64,000 nt of DNA from Algimonas porphyrae. Its GTDB lineage: Bacteria > Pseudomonadota > Alphaproteobacteria > Caulobacterales > Maricaulaceae. Position numbers and translations under genes: made by a program. Positions 56,782 through 64,000 of this stretch are shown piece by piece. Every line of letters starts with the position of its first letter. The first letter of the stretch is position 1. The DNA lies in NCBI RefSeq assembly GCF_041429795.1, contig NZ_CP163424.1:1924001-1988000 (forward strand). Reading direction: 5' to 3'. The notes under the pieces are model-generated. The model did no database searches. It was not told the DNA's origin and saw only the letters and a list, made by a program, of their open reading frames with translations.

Positions 56782-57794
56782 CGGTCGCCCCGCACATCGA
56801 CTGCGTTGCCTTCATCGAGGGTAAACCTCGCACCGATGCGTTCAGTCAGTGGCGTTCGCCAGTCGAACGGGCAGTCGTCAAGCCAGTGTCGAATGTCTGG
56901 GGTCACGCTCAGCGTCAATCGGGCACCCGGCGCCGCTCTGGCTTCACGTGTCAGACGTCGCAGAGCCTGAATGGACTGCGTTTCTATCGTCGGGCGCCCA
57001 AAACGGTCATTCATCTTGGCATCGATCGAAGGCCCGTCCTGCCCTCGTGTCATCTCAACGACGCCAAAACGCGAAAAAGGAGCAACCCGAACACTAGCCG
57101 GGTCAGCCTCGCCGGCCTCTTCCAGAAGGCGGATCAGAGTACTGCGATGTTTTGACTGGCGCATGTTGGGAAAATCAACCGCCACGAGACCGCCCAGACC
57201 CCGCAGACGCAGCTGCGACATTATCAGGCTGGCCGCATTGGTGCTGCAATCCATAACTGTTTTAGCGCCGCCCTTGTCCACATCGACCGCAATCAGTGCC
57301 TGTGTGCGTTCCAATGTAACCGTTCCACCGCCCGGGACTGCAAGCTGTCGTTCGGTCGCCATATCCATGACGCCGACCGTCGAATCTTCGAATCCGATAT
57401 CCGGGAAGCGGGATTCAAGGCGTTGCTGCAGAGACAGGACGGTCACAGCTCCGGGCTTATCGCGCGAAGGATCGCCCACATAACGCAGAGTCGGACCTTT
57501 CTCGGACATGGCTTCCTTGGTGATGATGACGTCGATCAGCGCGCCTTCGGTCAGACGCGGCAGATCTTTCTGAGCCTTGAATGTCAGCAACCCCGATGGT
57601 CCCTTCCCCAATTCGAGCCACAGCCCGCCCACGGACGGATCGATTGATGTCACCTGTCCTGTCCAGCGCTCGCCGATCCGGGGCGTATTGAAGTCAGACC
57701 AACGGTCAAGATGGAGCTCGACCAGTTTGCGACCCTCATAGACTGCTGCACGGGTTTCCCCGATGCAGTCCTCGATCACGGCGCGCCGTTTCAT
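56778..57794 (-). CDS. Ribonuclease E/G-family protein, short form
   Basis: A 338-residue RNase E/G-like protein, shorter than E. coli RNase G. An S1-like N-terminal part (about 30-110, with [24 protein letters not shown]) leads to the catalytic region. The two catalytic aspartates appear in IAVDVDKG and VAVDFPNM, in place of the usual IDVNTG and DFIDM. The zinc-link cysteines and large C-terminal scaffold of RNase E are absent. It probably trims RNA ends, but activity is unproven. It overlaps maf and yacG by 4 bp each, the usual alphaproteobacterial order. Confidence 0.85.
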
Positions 57795-58369
57795 GCATTC
57801 ACTCCAGCCGCAACGAGCAGGGTGCGTGTTTCATAGACCGGCAGACCGACAACCCCGGTGTAAGAGCCCGATAGATGATGAATATAGGCACCGAAACGAC
57901 CCTGAATCCCGTAACCGCCGGCCTTGCCGTGCCATTCGCGACTGTCGAGATAGGTCGCCAATTCCTGCTCAGACAGACGTTTGACCTTCACGCGTGTTTC
58001 GCTGAGACGGTAGCGCGATAATCCGTCACGATCGATCACGCAAATACCCGTAAAAACGCGATGCGCGCGGCCGCTCATGAGACGCAGACAGGTTTCGGCC
58101 TCGTCGGTTTCATGGGTTTTGGGAAGAATGCGGCGCCCAACACCGACCACAGTATCGGCCGCCAGAACAACGCATGCCGCGTTTTGTTTCGCAACATGAT
58201 GGGCCTTTTCCTGCGCCAGACGCAATGCATGCGGTCCCGGCAACTCGCCTCCAACTGGATTTTCATTGATGTCGGCCGGAATAACAGCGTCAGGGGTCAG
58301 TCCGATCTGGGCCAGGAGATCCAGGCGACGCGGACTGGCACTGGCCAGTATGAAGCCGTCACCGGACAT
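57791..58369 (-). CDS. maf: Maf-family nucleoside triphosphate pyrophosphatase
   Basis: A 192-residue Maf protein, a house-cleaning pyrophosphatase that hydrolyses non-canonical or canonical NTPs (dTTP/UTP or modified bases, depending on the subgroup). The P-loop-like start ILASASPRRLDLLAQIG, ADTVVGV and the C-terminal GKAGGYGIQG-VVGLP segment are clear. It lies 11 bp after infA and overlaps the RNase gene. Confidence 0.93.
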   Translation of the reverse strand: MSGDGFILASASPRRLDLLAQIGLTPDAVIPADINENPVGGELPGPHALRLAQEKAHHVAKQNAACVVLAADTVVGVGRRILPKTHETDEAETCLRLMSGRAHRVFTGICVIDRDGLSRYRLSETRVKVKRLSEQELATYLDSREWHGKAGGYGIQGRFGAYIHHLSGSYTGVVGLPVYETRTLLVAAGVNA

Positions 58370-58380
58370 ATAAGGCCGTG

Positions 58381-58599
58381 CTATTTGAAGCGATAGGTGA
58401 TCCGACCCTTGGACAGATCATAGGGAGTCATCTCAACGGTCACACGGTCGCCTGCCAGCACACGAATTCAATTCTTGCGCATCCGGCCCGCCGTGTGGGC
58501 AATGATTTCATGATCATTGACCAGCTTCACGCGGAAGGTGGCGTTTGGCAGAAGTTCGACAACTTCGCCTTCAAATTCGAGGAGTTCTTCTTTGGCCAA
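58381..58599 (-). pseudogene. infA: Translation initiation factor IF-1 gene with in-frame TGA at codon 44
   Basis: The minus strand reads a complete IF-1: TTG start at 58599, AAGGA ribosome site six bases upstream, 72 codons and TAG at 58381-58383, the exact family length. It begins [20 protein letters not shown] and ends YDLSKGRITYRFK, all normal. Codon 44 (58468-58470), between RMRKN and IRVLAGDRV, is TGA; alphaproteobacterial IF-1 normally has Arg here, so one C-to-T change of CGA explains it. IF-1 is essential, so this is a sequence error, a nonsense mutation covered by another copy, or read-through. TGA is a normal stop in neighbouring genes. Confidence 0.9.
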
Positions 58600-58687
58600 A
58601 ACCAGTCCTTAATCCGTCGCTGCCCGGTGCAGCCCGTTCTTCGCGCGCTATATAGGGCGTTTCACGCTAACCGAAAGGGTAAATACA

Positions 58688-59086
58688 TCAGGATAGCCGT
58701 GATAGCCTGTTGGTAATGACAGATCGAATGGCGCGGTAATTGTCCATAATGGCGCGCACGTCATAACTGGCTGAAGATGGGTTGGGCACGGTCCAGAGCT
58801 CGACAGGCGCATCCGGTCCCAGTACGGCTTCGGCGGCATCCTTCGTGTCATGTGAGAATGCGACAACACGGTCGAAGGTCTGATCTGCAAAGTCTTGCAG
58901 GGATTTCGGCTGATGTGCGCTCATATCGATCCCGACCTCGCGCATCACCGCCAGCATCAGCTCATCGACATCACCGGGCTCCAATCCGCAAGATTGCGCC
59001 ATAAACCCTTGTTTTTGAGCGATTCCTTCTGCCATAGGCGAGCGGACCATGTTCAGCTGACAAACAAAAAGGACGGTCTCGCTCAT
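58688..59086 (-). CDS. Low-molecular-weight phosphatase-family protein
   Basis: A 132-residue LMW-PTP/arsenate-reductase-like protein. The P-loop is C9-QLNMV-R15-S (C-x5-R-S), followed by PMAEG, and the general-acid region contains PNPSS near residue 100. It may be a protein tyrosine phosphatase; no arsenic-resistance context is present. Genes like it stand between UPF0262 and infA throughout the alphaproteobacteria. It overlaps UPF0262 by 4 bp. Confidence 0.87.
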   Translation of the reverse strand: MSETVLFVCQLNMVRSPMAEGIAQKQGFMAQSCGLEPGDVDELMLAVMREVGIDMSAHQPKSLQDFADQTFDRVVAFSHDTKDAAEAVLGPDAPVELWTVPNPSSASYDVRAIMDNYRAIRSVITNRLSRLS

Positions 59087-60020: not shown

Positions 60021-61286
60021 CTAGTCGTCGCGGACGCGTTTAATGCGCGCCCCGCATTGTCCAAGCTTTAATTCGATATTCTCGAAGCCACGATCAAGAT
60101 GGTAGACCCGGGAAATATGTGTTTCACCCCGCGCCGCCAGTCCAGCATTGATGAGGCTGGCCGAGGCCCTGAGATCGGTCGCCATGACAGGGGCGCCGAC
60201 ATAGTCCGCGACGCCCTGAACGATCGCCTCACGCCCGCGCACTGTAATGTCCGCCCCCATCCGGGTCAGCTCCGGACAGTGCATGAACCTGTTTTCGAAG
60301 ATGTTTTCACGAATAATCGACACGCCGTCTGCCAGTCCGATCAGAGCCATGAACTGCGCCTGCAGATCCGTTGGGAAGCCAGGATAGGCTTGCGTGTCGA
60401 CATTGACGGGTTTGGGCCGGCCCGTGCCGCGCTCGATCAGGACGGATTGATCATCGAGACTGACACGTGCGCCCGCCTGCGCGATGAGCGGCCAGAGCGA
60501 CCCCAGATGATCATGCCGGACATGGGTCAGTCGCACGGCACCGCCTGCCGTTGCCGCGGCCAGGGCGTAAGTACCGGCTTCAATCCGGTCGGGAACGACA
60601 GAATGAGTTACTCCTGAAAGGCTCTTAACGCCCTCAATGCGGATCTCCGACCGCCCGGCCCCGCTGATTTTCGCTCCCATGCCATTCAGACATTCCGCCA
60701 GATCGACAATTTCGGGTTCCCGGGCCGCGTTCATCAGCACCGTCTCTCCATCAGCCAAAACAGCCGACAGTAGCGCATGTTCAGTCGCGCCGACGGTGAC
60801 GAAGGGAAAGGCGATCTCGGCCCCCTTCAATCCGCTGCGAGCCGAGGCCACAACATAACCCTGTTCCAGCTCTATCTTTGCGCCCATCGCTTCCAGCGAC
60901 TTCAGATGCAGATCCACAGGCCGTGCGCCGATCGCGCAACCACCGGGCAGACTGACGCGCGCTTCCCCTTCTCTTGCGAGCAACGGACCCAGCACATTAA
61001 AACTGGCACGCATTTTCCGGACGAGATCGTAGGGAGCTTCGGTCCCGCTTAGCTTTGGCGCATGCAGTTTCAGCGTCGCGTTGCCCTCTTCCTCGACAGA
61101 CACGCCCAGATGGGCCAGCAGTTCACCCATTGAGCGTGTATCGCGTAGTCGCGGCATGTTGGTCAGCGTCACGGGCTGATCCGTCAGGAGGCTGACAGCC
61201 ATCAACTTGATTGCGGAGTTTTTCGCGCCGCTGATCCGGATGTCGCCACGCAGCGGAAATCCGCCTTCGATCACTATCTTGTCCAT
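60021..61286 (-). CDS. murA: UDP-N-acetylglucosamine 1-carboxyvinyltransferase MurA
   Basis: A 421-residue MurA, the first committed step of peptidoglycan synthesis (enolpyruvyl transfer to UDP-GlcNAc). The N-terminal SGAKNSAIK motif, the fosfomycin-target cysteine in [15 protein letters not shown] and the [15 protein letters not shown] stretch are all present, so the enzyme should be fosfomycin-sensitive in principle. It heads the cluster running down to yacG. Confidence 0.96.
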
Positions 61287-61570: not shown

Positions 61571-61645
61571 GCCGCGGTAGCTCAGTGGTAGAGCGCATCA
61601 TTGGTAATGATGAGGTCGAGAGTTCAATTCTCTCCCGCGGCACCA
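61571..61645 (+). tRNA. tRNA-Thr (anticodon GGT)
   Basis: A complete 75-base tRNA: acceptor GCCGCGG/CCGCGGC, D arm AGCTCAGTGGTAGAGC, anticodon loop TTGGTAA with anticodon GGT, T arm GAGTTCAATTCTC and encoded CCA at 61643-61645. The core genome stops at its 3' end and short phage-type genes follow, so it is a likely integration site. Confidence 0.95.
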
Positions 61646-62039
61646 GCAAAAGCCCCACTATTACTGGACTTTTCGGCGGTTTCGCCTCGGTTTCGCGCTG
61701 TCACCACGTTCGTCGAACGTGTCCCAAAACGTCGATATCGGTGCAAACTGGTAGAACAAAGTTGGGCAATTCTTGGGCAACGCCGGAACGCACTGCCCAC
61801 CACACCAGATTCGTAGTCTGGTGTTTACGCCTGATACGTCAATGGCTTGGCGGTAAACCAAAACGCCGATCCGGCCAATACGGTCAATGGCTTGCCGAAA
61901 AAGTGGAAACCGTTTCCGGCCACTCCCGTCCGGCTGGGGTGGCCCGACTGCCCGCCTTTGAAAGCAAGGCTCCGTTCATACCGTGGAATGGCTGGATGGG
62001 GCTGTTTTCGGGGCGATGTGTGAATATGGGGGTGGGGCT
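61646..62039. other. Gene-free 394-bp stretch with inverted repeats beside tRNA-Thr
   Basis: No convincing gene is seen on either strand. Two perfect inverted repeats are present: 61705-61721 (7-base arms CACGTTC/GAACGTG, 3-base loop) and 61802-61824 (8-base arms ACACCAGA/TCTGGTGT, 7-base loop). A short repeated unit, GTCAATGGCTTG, occurs near 61840 and 61887. These could be recombinase or excisionase arm sites, or remnants of an attachment region. Confidence 0.45.
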
Positions 62040-62297
62040 GTGAGTGTGCAGCGCCCACCTATCTGCTTGAACGAGCGGCAGCGTGAAGTCCTTCGAGGCC
62101 TGCTTTACTTCACCGAGGGCGGCGACTGGGCGCGTCCTATGGACGTAGGCGGATGGGACGCAAGCTATCACGGAAGGACGCTTCGGCAGCTCGCCAGTAA
62201 GGGGCTTGCCGAGGTGCGCACCTTCGGCGGCATCCGTCGGACCAATCACTATCGGATTACCGGCGCTGGACGCGCTGCTTTGCAGGACCCCGCCTGA
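62040..62297 (+). CDS. Small winged-helix-like protein of the mobile element
   Basis: An 85-residue protein from the GTG at 62040, preceded by a G-rich ribosome site. The pattern NERQREVLRGLLYFTE, RTLRQLASKGLAEVRTFGG, NHYRITGAGRAAL is that of a small winged helix-turn-helix (helix, recognition helix, beta-wing, ITxxG end), as in many phage and restriction-type regulators. A longer in-frame reading from 61983 is possible. Its stop overlaps the next start (TGATG). Confidence 0.6.
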   Translation: MSVQRPPICLNERQREVLRGLLYFTEGGDWARPMDVGGWDASYHGRTLRQLASKGLAEVRTFGGIRRTNHYRITGAGRAALQDPA

Positions 62298-62752
62298 TGC
62301 CTGCCAGCATGACCCCGACCCCATCCCGTGCGGAGGCGTGTCGCTGCGACGGCGACGGCTACCGCTATGAAGGGCTTTACCAACTGGACGCGGATTGTCC
62401 GGTCCACCCCAACCATCAATGCCCGATCAGCAGCACGAAAAGGGGGCGGATGATGGATAAGAGAATGCTCACACTGGCGGCAATGTTCGTAGCGGCTTGC
62501 GGCACGCAGCAACAACAGCTGCATTCCGACCAGCCGATCGCCGCCGAGCCAGTCACGCAAAGTCGGTTCGTTCACATCCTGCAGCATGACGATGACGGGA
62601 CGCTCCTGCCCTACAGCGCAAGTTACGATGAAGTCGAAGCTGATCTTCGCGCCCGGACGACAGAGTTTCTGGCGCGCTGCCCCAACCATCAATGCCCGAT
62701 AAATCCCGATCCCCGCCCTGACGGCGGACGGACAGACCAGAATGGAGAATGA
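62297..62752 (+). CDS. Phage-type hypothetical: Cys-rich leader fused to lipoprotein-like part
   Basis: A 151-residue open frame with two unlike halves. Residues 1-48 hold a cysteine pattern (CRCDG, DCP, HPNHQCPI) suggestive of a small metal-binding peptide. From Met52/Met53 (62450/62453) a second start with an AAAAGGGGGCGG ribosome site opens a lipoprotein-like signal with lipobox VAAC, so a separate in-frame product is likely. The peptide PNHQCPI recurs at the end through a 21-base direct repeat. I do not recognise a family. It may be one gene with internal initiation or two genes fused by stop loss. Confidence 0.5.
   Translation: MPASMTPTPSRAEACRCDGDGYRYEGLYQLDADCPVHPNHQCPISSTKRGRMMDKRMLTLAAMFVAACGTQQQQLHSDQPIAAEPVTQSRFVHILQHDDDGTLLPYSASYDEVEADLRARTTEFLARCPNHQCPINPDPRPDGGRTDQNGE
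62407..62427 (+). repeat. Direct repeat copy 1 (21 bases)
   Basis: Identical to 62680-62700, 273 bases downstream. Both copies lie in the same reading frame of the same gene and encode PNHQCPI with flanking bases. Confidence 0.85.
62680..62700 (+). repeat. Direct repeat copy 2 (21 bases)
   Basis: Identical to 62407-62427; the 273-base period is a multiple of three, so the repeat keeps the frame. Confidence 0.85.
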
Positions 62753-62754
62753 AG

Positions 62755-63027
62755 ATGGCTGATAGTCGGTTCACCGATGAGTTTCCTATGCCCGCGCGAA
62801 TGAGCGGAGCGATGCTCATCTTGTCGAGCAATCTCCGCGATTGTCCCGTGGGGCAATCTTTCTTCTGGTCGCGCCGTGACGGCAAGGAAGCGCGTGTAGG
62901 CATGGTCACGTCCCGCATCCGAGACATGCGCCTATCCGGAGATCTGAATGACACGACAATCTTCACCTGCAAGCGCGCTGCCAAGAGCGACGTGATCGGC
63001 GTCCGCGTGTGGAAAGTGTCTGACTAA
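62755..63027 (+). CDS. Phage-type hypothetical protein
   Basis: A 90-residue protein (ATG at 62755 with a GGAG site; an ATG two codons earlier lies too close to that site). The middle part (GQSFFWSRRDGKEARVGMVTSRIRDM, then TIFTCKRAA) looks like a small alpha/beta domain with many basic residues and may contact DNA. No family recognised. It follows the preceding frame with almost no gap. Confidence 0.55.
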   Translation: MADSRFTDEFPMPARMSGAMLILSSNLRDCPVGQSFFWSRRDGKEARVGMVTSRIRDMRLSGDLNDTTIFTCKRAAKSDVIGVRVWKVSD

Positions 63028-63092
63028 CCCCACCCCGCGCGTCTTCCCCGGCGCGCACACAACAGCCCGACGCGGGCGGAAGGAGAATAGAG

Positions 63093-63359
63093 ATGAAGCG
63101 AGAAAGAGCGCCGCTGCCTAATGAAATTAGAGGCGGCTGGCATGCGGTCGAGGACATGCCGGAGCCTTGGCAAGATGCCCGGGCATTGGAGGTCTACGTC
63201 CATAGTTGGCCAAGCCGTATTGTCTCTTGCCAGTATGGTTGCGCAATTGATGAAGGTGGCGATGAAATTTGTGGTTTCCACACTATTGGGAAGCCGGGAG
63301 ACTGGATACGCATGGAGGACGAGCCTGCCGTTCTCGTCCGGGAGCCTGTAAAGCAATGA
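63093..63359 (+). CDS. Phage-type hypothetical protein
   Basis: An 88-residue acidic protein with a strong GGAAGGAGA ribosome site at about 63079. GWHAVEDMPEPWQDARALEVYVHSW is weakly like the tryptophan-rich start of DUF551-type phage proteins, but I would not assign the family. Two cysteines (SCQYGC) and a C-terminal acidic segment are seen. Its stop overlaps the next start by 4 bp (ATGA). Confidence 0.55.
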   Translation: MKRERAPLPNEIRGGWHAVEDMPEPWQDARALEVYVHSWPSRIVSCQYGCAIDEGGDEICGFHTIGKPGDWIRMEDEPAVLVREPVKQ

Positions 63360-63871
63360 CCGCCCCGACCGTCCCTCCCATGGACGAGCTGGAGGCGTTG
63401 CTGGCAGAGGCGGCGCCGGGGCCGTGGTTCATAAGAGACGGCTCTTCTTGGCGGCGCATTCGCTCTGACTGGCGGAGTGGGCAAGATGTAGAGGTTATTA
63501 CGCCGACCATACAGAATGACGGCCACCCTGACCTGTCATGCGCGCGAGGCCACGATCGAATGGCAAACTTGGGTCTGGCTGCCGCTGCCCCCGCCCTACT
63601 CGACTACTGCGAACACCTAGAAGCCCGCCTTGCCGATGCGGAGGCGCGGGCAGAAATGTTTCAAGCCGCGCTGGACGAGTTGGTCGGCTCCCCGGACCAT
63701 GAGTTTTCCGGCGTAGGGGCTGACGGGCTGTCTCACCTTCGGGACATGTATCGTGAGAAATGGGATATGCTCGGGCCGTCGTGCCGGACCTCGCTACGCA
63801 ATCACATCGACATGGCGGTAAGGACCGCAGCAGCTCAAGCCCGCCGCGCCCTCAAGGATGGGGAGGGGTAG
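63356..63871 (+). CDS. Phage-type hypothetical with coiled-coil segment
   Basis: A 171-residue protein from ATG 63356. The N-terminal LEALLAEAAPGPW and central LGLAAAAPALLDYCEHLEARLADAEARAEMF resemble the conserved opening and alanine-rich helix seen in many small phage early proteins (Ead/Ea22-like in style). The helix from about 80 to 115 has coiled-coil character. Function unknown. It overlaps the previous gene by 4 bp and ends 3 bases before the HNH gene. Confidence 0.55.
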   Translation: MTAPTVPPMDELEALLAEAAPGPWFIRDGSSWRRIRSDWRSGQDVEVITPTIQNDGHPDLSCARGHDRMANLGLAAAAPALLDYCEHLEARLADAEARAEMFQAALDELVGSPDHEFSGVGADGLSHLRDMYREKWDMLGPSCRTSLRNHIDMAVRTAAAQARRALKDGEG

Positions 63872-63874
63872 GAG

Positions 63875-64000
63875 ATGCCGATTTCTGCCAGAAACATGAG
63901 GCGCTATCCCGGCGGATCAACGAACTCCAAAGAGTGGAAGGCAATCAGGGCGGAAATCCTAGAGCGCGCCGATAACGCGTGTGAGGGCTCTCCCGCTTTC
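63875..64000 (+). CDS. HNH endonuclease-like phage protein (5' end only)
   Basis: The window ends inside this frame (42 codons visible, ATG 63875 with a TAGGAG site). The visible YPGGSTNSKEWKAIRAEILERA, then CEGSPAF, matches the start of a phage HNH endonuclease family with the layout W-x-IR-x5-RA-x3-CEGSP. The HNH motif itself would lie beyond the window. Such enzymes often sit near terminase or replication genes. Confidence 0.6.
   Translation, partial: MPISARNMRRYPGGSTNSKEWKAIRAEILERADNACEGSPAF

Follow-up and report, generated by a model that had tools for sequence, protein, structure and literature searches.

How can the infA gene of Algimonas porphyrae, the gene for translation initiation factor IF-1, carry a stop codon in the middle of its reading frame? 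The question arises in a stretch of 64,000 nucleotides (the window; positions 1,924,001 to 1,988,000 of contig NZ_CP163424.1). In the window, infA occupies positions 58381..58599 on the minus strand. Frame reading and a profile search delineate 72 codons with a TTG start, a TAG stop and one in-frame TGA at codon 44 (58468..58470 on the minus strand, read 58470-58468). Read through this TGA, the frame matches TIGR00008 over model positions 1-68 of 69, with 107.7 bits and an E value of 7.8e-31. Since the score exceeds the curated cut-off of the profile (61.15 bits), the frame is not due to chance. A sequence-only reading had described a perfect 72-codon infA frame with one TGA at 58468-58470. 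The coordinates were confirmed and the profile match supports the description, which gave the positions correctly but left the minus strand unstated. It also placed a C at the wobble position of codon 44, whereas the presumed C-to-T change would fall on the first position of that codon (58470).

As compared to bacterial IF-1 genes in general, infA here is alike in its 72 codons, in its near-complete profile match, in its neighbourhood and in the TTG of its closest relatives. It differs in that its frame is interrupted in the assembly, whereas 59 matches in 57 relatives have no in-frame TGA. A Shine-Dalgarno-like AAGGA (58606..58610, minus strand) lies 6 nt 5′ of the TTG, and the same or a similar AAGGA stands ahead of the TTG in the closest relatives. 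The TTG itself (58597-58599) is also the start codon in these relatives, and ATG is found there in several more distant ones. When stops with coding signal on both sides were searched for in 464 kb of the genome (20 stretches of 20 kb plus the window, with 1 kb counted twice), the infA TGA ranked first among 58.

The gene lies in the run murA, an unknown gene, UPF0262, a low-molecular-weight phosphatase, infA, maf, rng and yacG. Apart from infA and murA, the names in this cluster are our assumption and follow those usual for the conserved cluster. On the minus strand, infA is followed by a maf-like open frame (57791..58369) and preceded by a low-molecular-weight phosphatase-like open frame (58688..59086). 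Further upstream stands the murA-like open frame (60021..61286, minus strand), likewise a presumptive label, with best-segment identities of 90% to A. arctica and 87% to Algimonas sp. In the relatives, a motif found infA in 41 of 80 murA-centred loci; several of the remaining loci run off the end of a contig, and a divergent infA could escape the motif. The placement of infA within a conserved murA-to-yacG cluster, claimed earlier, is borne out by the run and by these loci. Beyond it, downstream of tRNA-Thr(ggt), positions 61571-63975 hold a series of short plus-strand open reading frames of no obvious core-gene identity, possibly an integrated element.

We then asked whether this copy stands alone. 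The genome consists of one contig of 3,169,281 bp and is 99.88% complete. A whole-genome search with TIGR00008 gave a single match, the interrupted copy. The genome paper states that the absence of plasmids was confirmed by plasmid extraction, with completeness given as 99.84% (PMC11556061). A second infA elsewhere, one of the options raised by the sequence-only reading, thus found no support. In the same search, infA was matched in 58 of 60 genomes (this one and 59 relatives); the 59 matches in the 57 other genomes are all free of internal stops, and two of the 59 relatives gave no match. A class-wide sweep of genomes at least 95% complete found infA in 384 of 389 and no match in five, with no stops in infA among the matches listed. 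Some genomes have two infA matches.

In order to see what codon 44 should be, the codon was compared across relatives. It encodes arginine in 64 of 64 rows (CGT 36, CGC 24, CGA 3, CGG 1); these rows represent 54 distinct contigs, since ten rows repeat a contig, and cover the loci where the motif found infA. Two of the three CGA rows come from one A. arctica contig. A comparison with sister genomes, as had been proposed, therefore upholds arginine. The proposed path from an arginine codon to TGA by a single CGA-to-TGA transition also holds with the CGA of A. arctica; most rows have CGT or CGC. As compared to A. arctica, infA shows 29 synonymous and 2 non-synonymous codon differences, one of the latter being the stop. 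With seven other relatives, 29-39 synonymous and 2-3 non-synonymous differences were counted. Judging from these codons, infA has evolved under purifying selection. Under such selection, the stop must be either an artefact or of very recent date. An origin of the stop from an EcoRI linker was considered on account of an adjacent GAATTC and dropped, the same GAATTC being present in A. arctica.

We next considered how UGA is read in this genome. RF1-like, RF2-like and ArfB-like proteins are encoded; the first two were distinguished by the tripeptide region, PVT as against SPY, which we take to be diagnostic. Near position 1,792,670 of the genome contig, prfB shows a short first frame from an ATG, an AGGAGG-like stretch and then CTT TGA C. 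The CTT TGA C autoregulatory frameshift of prfB is known from other bacteria and depends on UGA acting as a stop. By its sequence, the prfB site is a classic programmed frameshift, with an in-frame TGA that is genuine and functional in this genome. Among the tRNAs, RF00005 gave 39 matches, 38 of them over the Rfam cut-off, and ARAGORN was run on loci covering these 38. None of the 38 has a UCA anticodon, and the anticodon of tRNA-Trp is CCA. Because an RF2 with a CTT TGA C site is present and a UCA-anticodon tRNA was not found, UGA looks like a working stop in this genome. The search for a tRNA-Sec (RF01852) had a sole match over the cut-off, an ordinary tRNA-Ser(tga) at genome contig position 1952165.

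Several routes to a decoded UGA were discarded on these grounds. Loss of RF2 is contradicted by the RF2-like protein and the prfB site, genome-wide reassignment of UGA by RF2 and by the lack of a UCA anticodon among the 38 tRNAs, and selenocysteine insertion by the identity of the only tRNA-Sec match. Nor did the suppressor tRNA that the sequence-only reading wished to look for turn up among the 38, and the read-through or suppression that it allowed for has no visible machinery. The locus resembles known cases of UGA recoding or suppression in that a TGA interrupts the frame of a gene that is otherwise conserved and probably essential; unlike them, it comes with an RF2 bearing a frameshift site and with no suppressor or selenocysteine tRNA among the tRNAs seen. 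The genome paper counts 41 tRNAs and 3 rRNAs (PMC11556061). It is unlikely that a suppressor hides among the three tRNAs unseen here. In our searches of the genome, tRNA-Ile(gat), tRNA-Ala(tgc) and the SSU rRNA were not found, and the rRNA search also missed 5 of 14 controls, Caulobacter included. A weak tRNA-like match of 26.7 bits (genome contig 2026487-2026544), below the cut-off and uncalled by ARAGORN, is possibly a tRNA remnant.

The way in which the sequence was obtained offers another answer. Strain LMG 26424T (CP163424) was sequenced as native DNA with Oxford Nanopore R10.4.1 (Rapid Barcoding kit, sup@v4.2.0). The reads, at 59x, were assembled with Trycycler and Medaka, and the paper describes no step with short reads (PMC11556061). 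The result is thus a native nanopore assembly without described short-read polishing, the setting of methylation-related consensus errors. The paper counts 25 pseudogenes in CP163424; an older draft of this strain, GCF_030159935.1, has 22 (PMC11556061). Errors of this type have been described elsewhere. According to passages of a study on agrobacteria, most SNP errors of assemblies lay near likely methylation sites, with GANTC named; long-read assemblies at 50x or more averaged 23 such errors, and methylation-aware models gave fewer than v4.2.0 did (PMC12710330). Excerpts of a study on Brucella tie GANTC to two potential methylation-related errors, and also state that methylation explains 6.5% of nanopore errors and that methylated motifs mostly cause none (PMC12392509). 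In passages of a third study, RA/TY is given as the minimal pattern of ambiguous bases common to 32 species and 264 isolates; R (3311) and Y (3111) made up most of the 6556 ambiguous bases in 33 K. pneumoniae samples, and no literature motif is said there to fit the RA/TY pattern (PMC11610573).

The sequence around codon 44 may fit these descriptions. The plus strand reads A at base 58470, then ATTC. The resulting AATTC (58470..58474, plus strand) would be a GANTC if 58470 were a miscalled purine. That is, if codon 44 is in fact CGA, as in A. arctica, the site becomes a GANTC with the target adenine of CcrM at 58471. Positions 58470-58471 are an R before an A, in agreement with the RA/TY pattern as reported in the available part of PMC11610573. 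CcrM is encoded in the genome: a protein with N6_N4_Mtase (PF01555) and RAMA domains matches PDB 6pbd, 'Modification methylase CcrMI', at 5e-165. The genome contig carries two PF01555 methylases, the CcrM-like one and a second, longer one (1688985-1689650 and 1547629-1548510). The second, a 576-aa open frame, could be another source of methylation-linked errors; it resembles, we presume, a type III modification subunit. In 387 ORFs sampled from the 464 kb, a transition could create a nonsense codon in 9,214 ways, 50 of which (0.54%) fall inside a GANTC; for CGA to TGA, the figures are 6 of 927 (0.65%). A true random mutation would therefore rarely hit such a site; the coincidence presumes that codon 44 is CGA, which makes up 9% of the arginine codons in the sample.

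Accordingly, with a probability that we put at about 85%, the TGA of infA would be a base-calling error that entered the consensus of an assembly from nanopore reads only; the gene itself would be ordinary and intact, with arginine at position 44. In the mechanism that we propose, CcrM would methylate the adenine in GANTC, so that base 58470 would have a methylated neighbour, the adenine at 58471 on the plus strand. The purine before the methylated A, and with it the pyrimidine opposite on the gene strand, would then be misread by the basecaller, and the miscall would survive polishing, since this draws on the same reads. Of the three outcomes that the sequence-only reading held to be of equal interest, an assembly error is thus favoured by the sequencing method, the methylation context and the published precedent, whereas a second infA and read-through are not supported. 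From our own analysis, this explanation draws on the sequence, the single copy, the invariant arginine, the purifying selection, the CcrM gene and the rare motif coincidence. The assembly method and the error type come from the papers, and we infer that 58470 is an error of this type. As far as the consulted parts of PMC12710330, PMC11610573 and PMC12392509 go, the published cases share with infA the native-DNA R10-type reads and would share a transition beside a methylated adenine; PMC12710330 also covers basecalling with sup v4.2.0 and alphaproteobacteria that methylate GANTC. In contrast to these published errors, the one at infA would be deduced from context and conservation. If the TGA is such an error, 'complete' genomes of CcrM-bearing bacteria built from nanopore reads only may contain isolated spurious stops where an essential gene has a GANTC; such stops could be flagged cheaply by looking for single-copy essential genes that are interrupted at a would-be GANTC.

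Further errors were searched for in the rest of the genome. In the 464-kb sample, 22 of 23 calls of a frame-change scan fit ordinary gene overlaps by their start and stop positions, with one 30-codon stretch left over; the scan had no positive control, missed both the infA stop and the prfB frameshift in the sample, and is weak for short interruptions. None of 34 ABC_tran matches contained a stop. As to the 57 other stops ranked with that of infA, judged by position, a start codon lies no more than 20 codons away for 42, which are likely gene boundaries, and farther off for 15. A stricter stop-flank scan returned two stops, that of infA not among them, and counts neither way. Overall, no sign of a poor assembly with many errors was seen, the pseudogene counts of 25 and 22 included. 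In the seven neighbouring genes, 14 residues are unique to this genome at otherwise invariant columns; seven are one transition away, and none of these seven makes a GANTC. Together with infA the number rises to 15, as compared to 0-33 in 14 relatives and to 5 and 6 in the two closest, Algimonas sp. and A. arctica. Both further errors and a longer branch could account for these 15 residues. At 6 of the 8 one-transition sites, infA included, this genome shows A or T against G or C in relatives; the same lean is seen in relatives and is not specific, and more miscalled bases are possible. Genome-wide depletion of GANTC was also considered as a trace of errors and rejected, the value of 0.56 lying within the spread of the relatives (0.56-0.70).

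If the TGA is real, it means either life without IF-1 or UGA decoding in a core gene. It could be a very recent nonsense mutation of the sequenced laboratory stock, IF-1 being dispensable or bypassed in this strain. No sign of many errors was seen elsewhere, so that a random error is not a cheap explanation, and a single transition separates the stop from the codon of A. arctica. Against this, the strain grew from a single colony to an OD600 of 1.34 in broth (PMC11556061), and PMC9398171, in the part drawn on here, calls infA essential in E. coli. By analogy, life without IF-1 would not be expected. Moreover, 57 of the 59 other relatives have kept a stop-free infA, and a random mutation would meet the would-be GANTC in less than 1% of cases. 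We regard such a mutation as unlikely, though as the foremost of the rivals. Much less probable is a real TGA decoded as an amino acid to give full-length IF-1, by a suppressor tRNA, by near-cognate tryptophan read-through or by other recoding. Frame and conservation do carry on past the stop, and three of the 41 published tRNAs (PMC11556061) lie outside the 38 typed. The anticodons, the RF1- and RF2-like proteins and the AGGAGG..CTT TGA C of prfB speak against it. A TGA followed by A is, in addition, not known as a leaky context. Site-specific decoding of UGA in the single infA with RF2 still present, the read-through of the stop setting the supply of the initiation factor, would be equally hard to credit.

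Beyond the TGA, after two intervening codons, comes a GTG, which would allow a split IF-1, made of residues 1-43 and of a reinitiated 26-residue piece that together form one OB fold. By eye, no Shine-Dalgarno-like sequence stands ahead of this GTG, and the 59 matches in 57 relatives are all unbroken; of all the readings weighed here, this one appears the least credible. Finally, the copy in the window could be a pseudogene, with IF-1 supplied by a second infA on a plasmid outside the assembly. Plasmid-borne infA does exist, 35 plasmid records matching a query with the A. arctica infA region; among the best 10 of the 35, four carry an annotated infA, three of them alphaproteobacterial. The single match in the whole genome, the plasmids reported absent (PMC11556061) and the purifying selection still visible in infA make this arrangement very improbable. 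The infA-like plasmid matches come from Sinorhizobium, Neorhizobium, Sphingomonas and others, some of them non-alphaproteobacterial.
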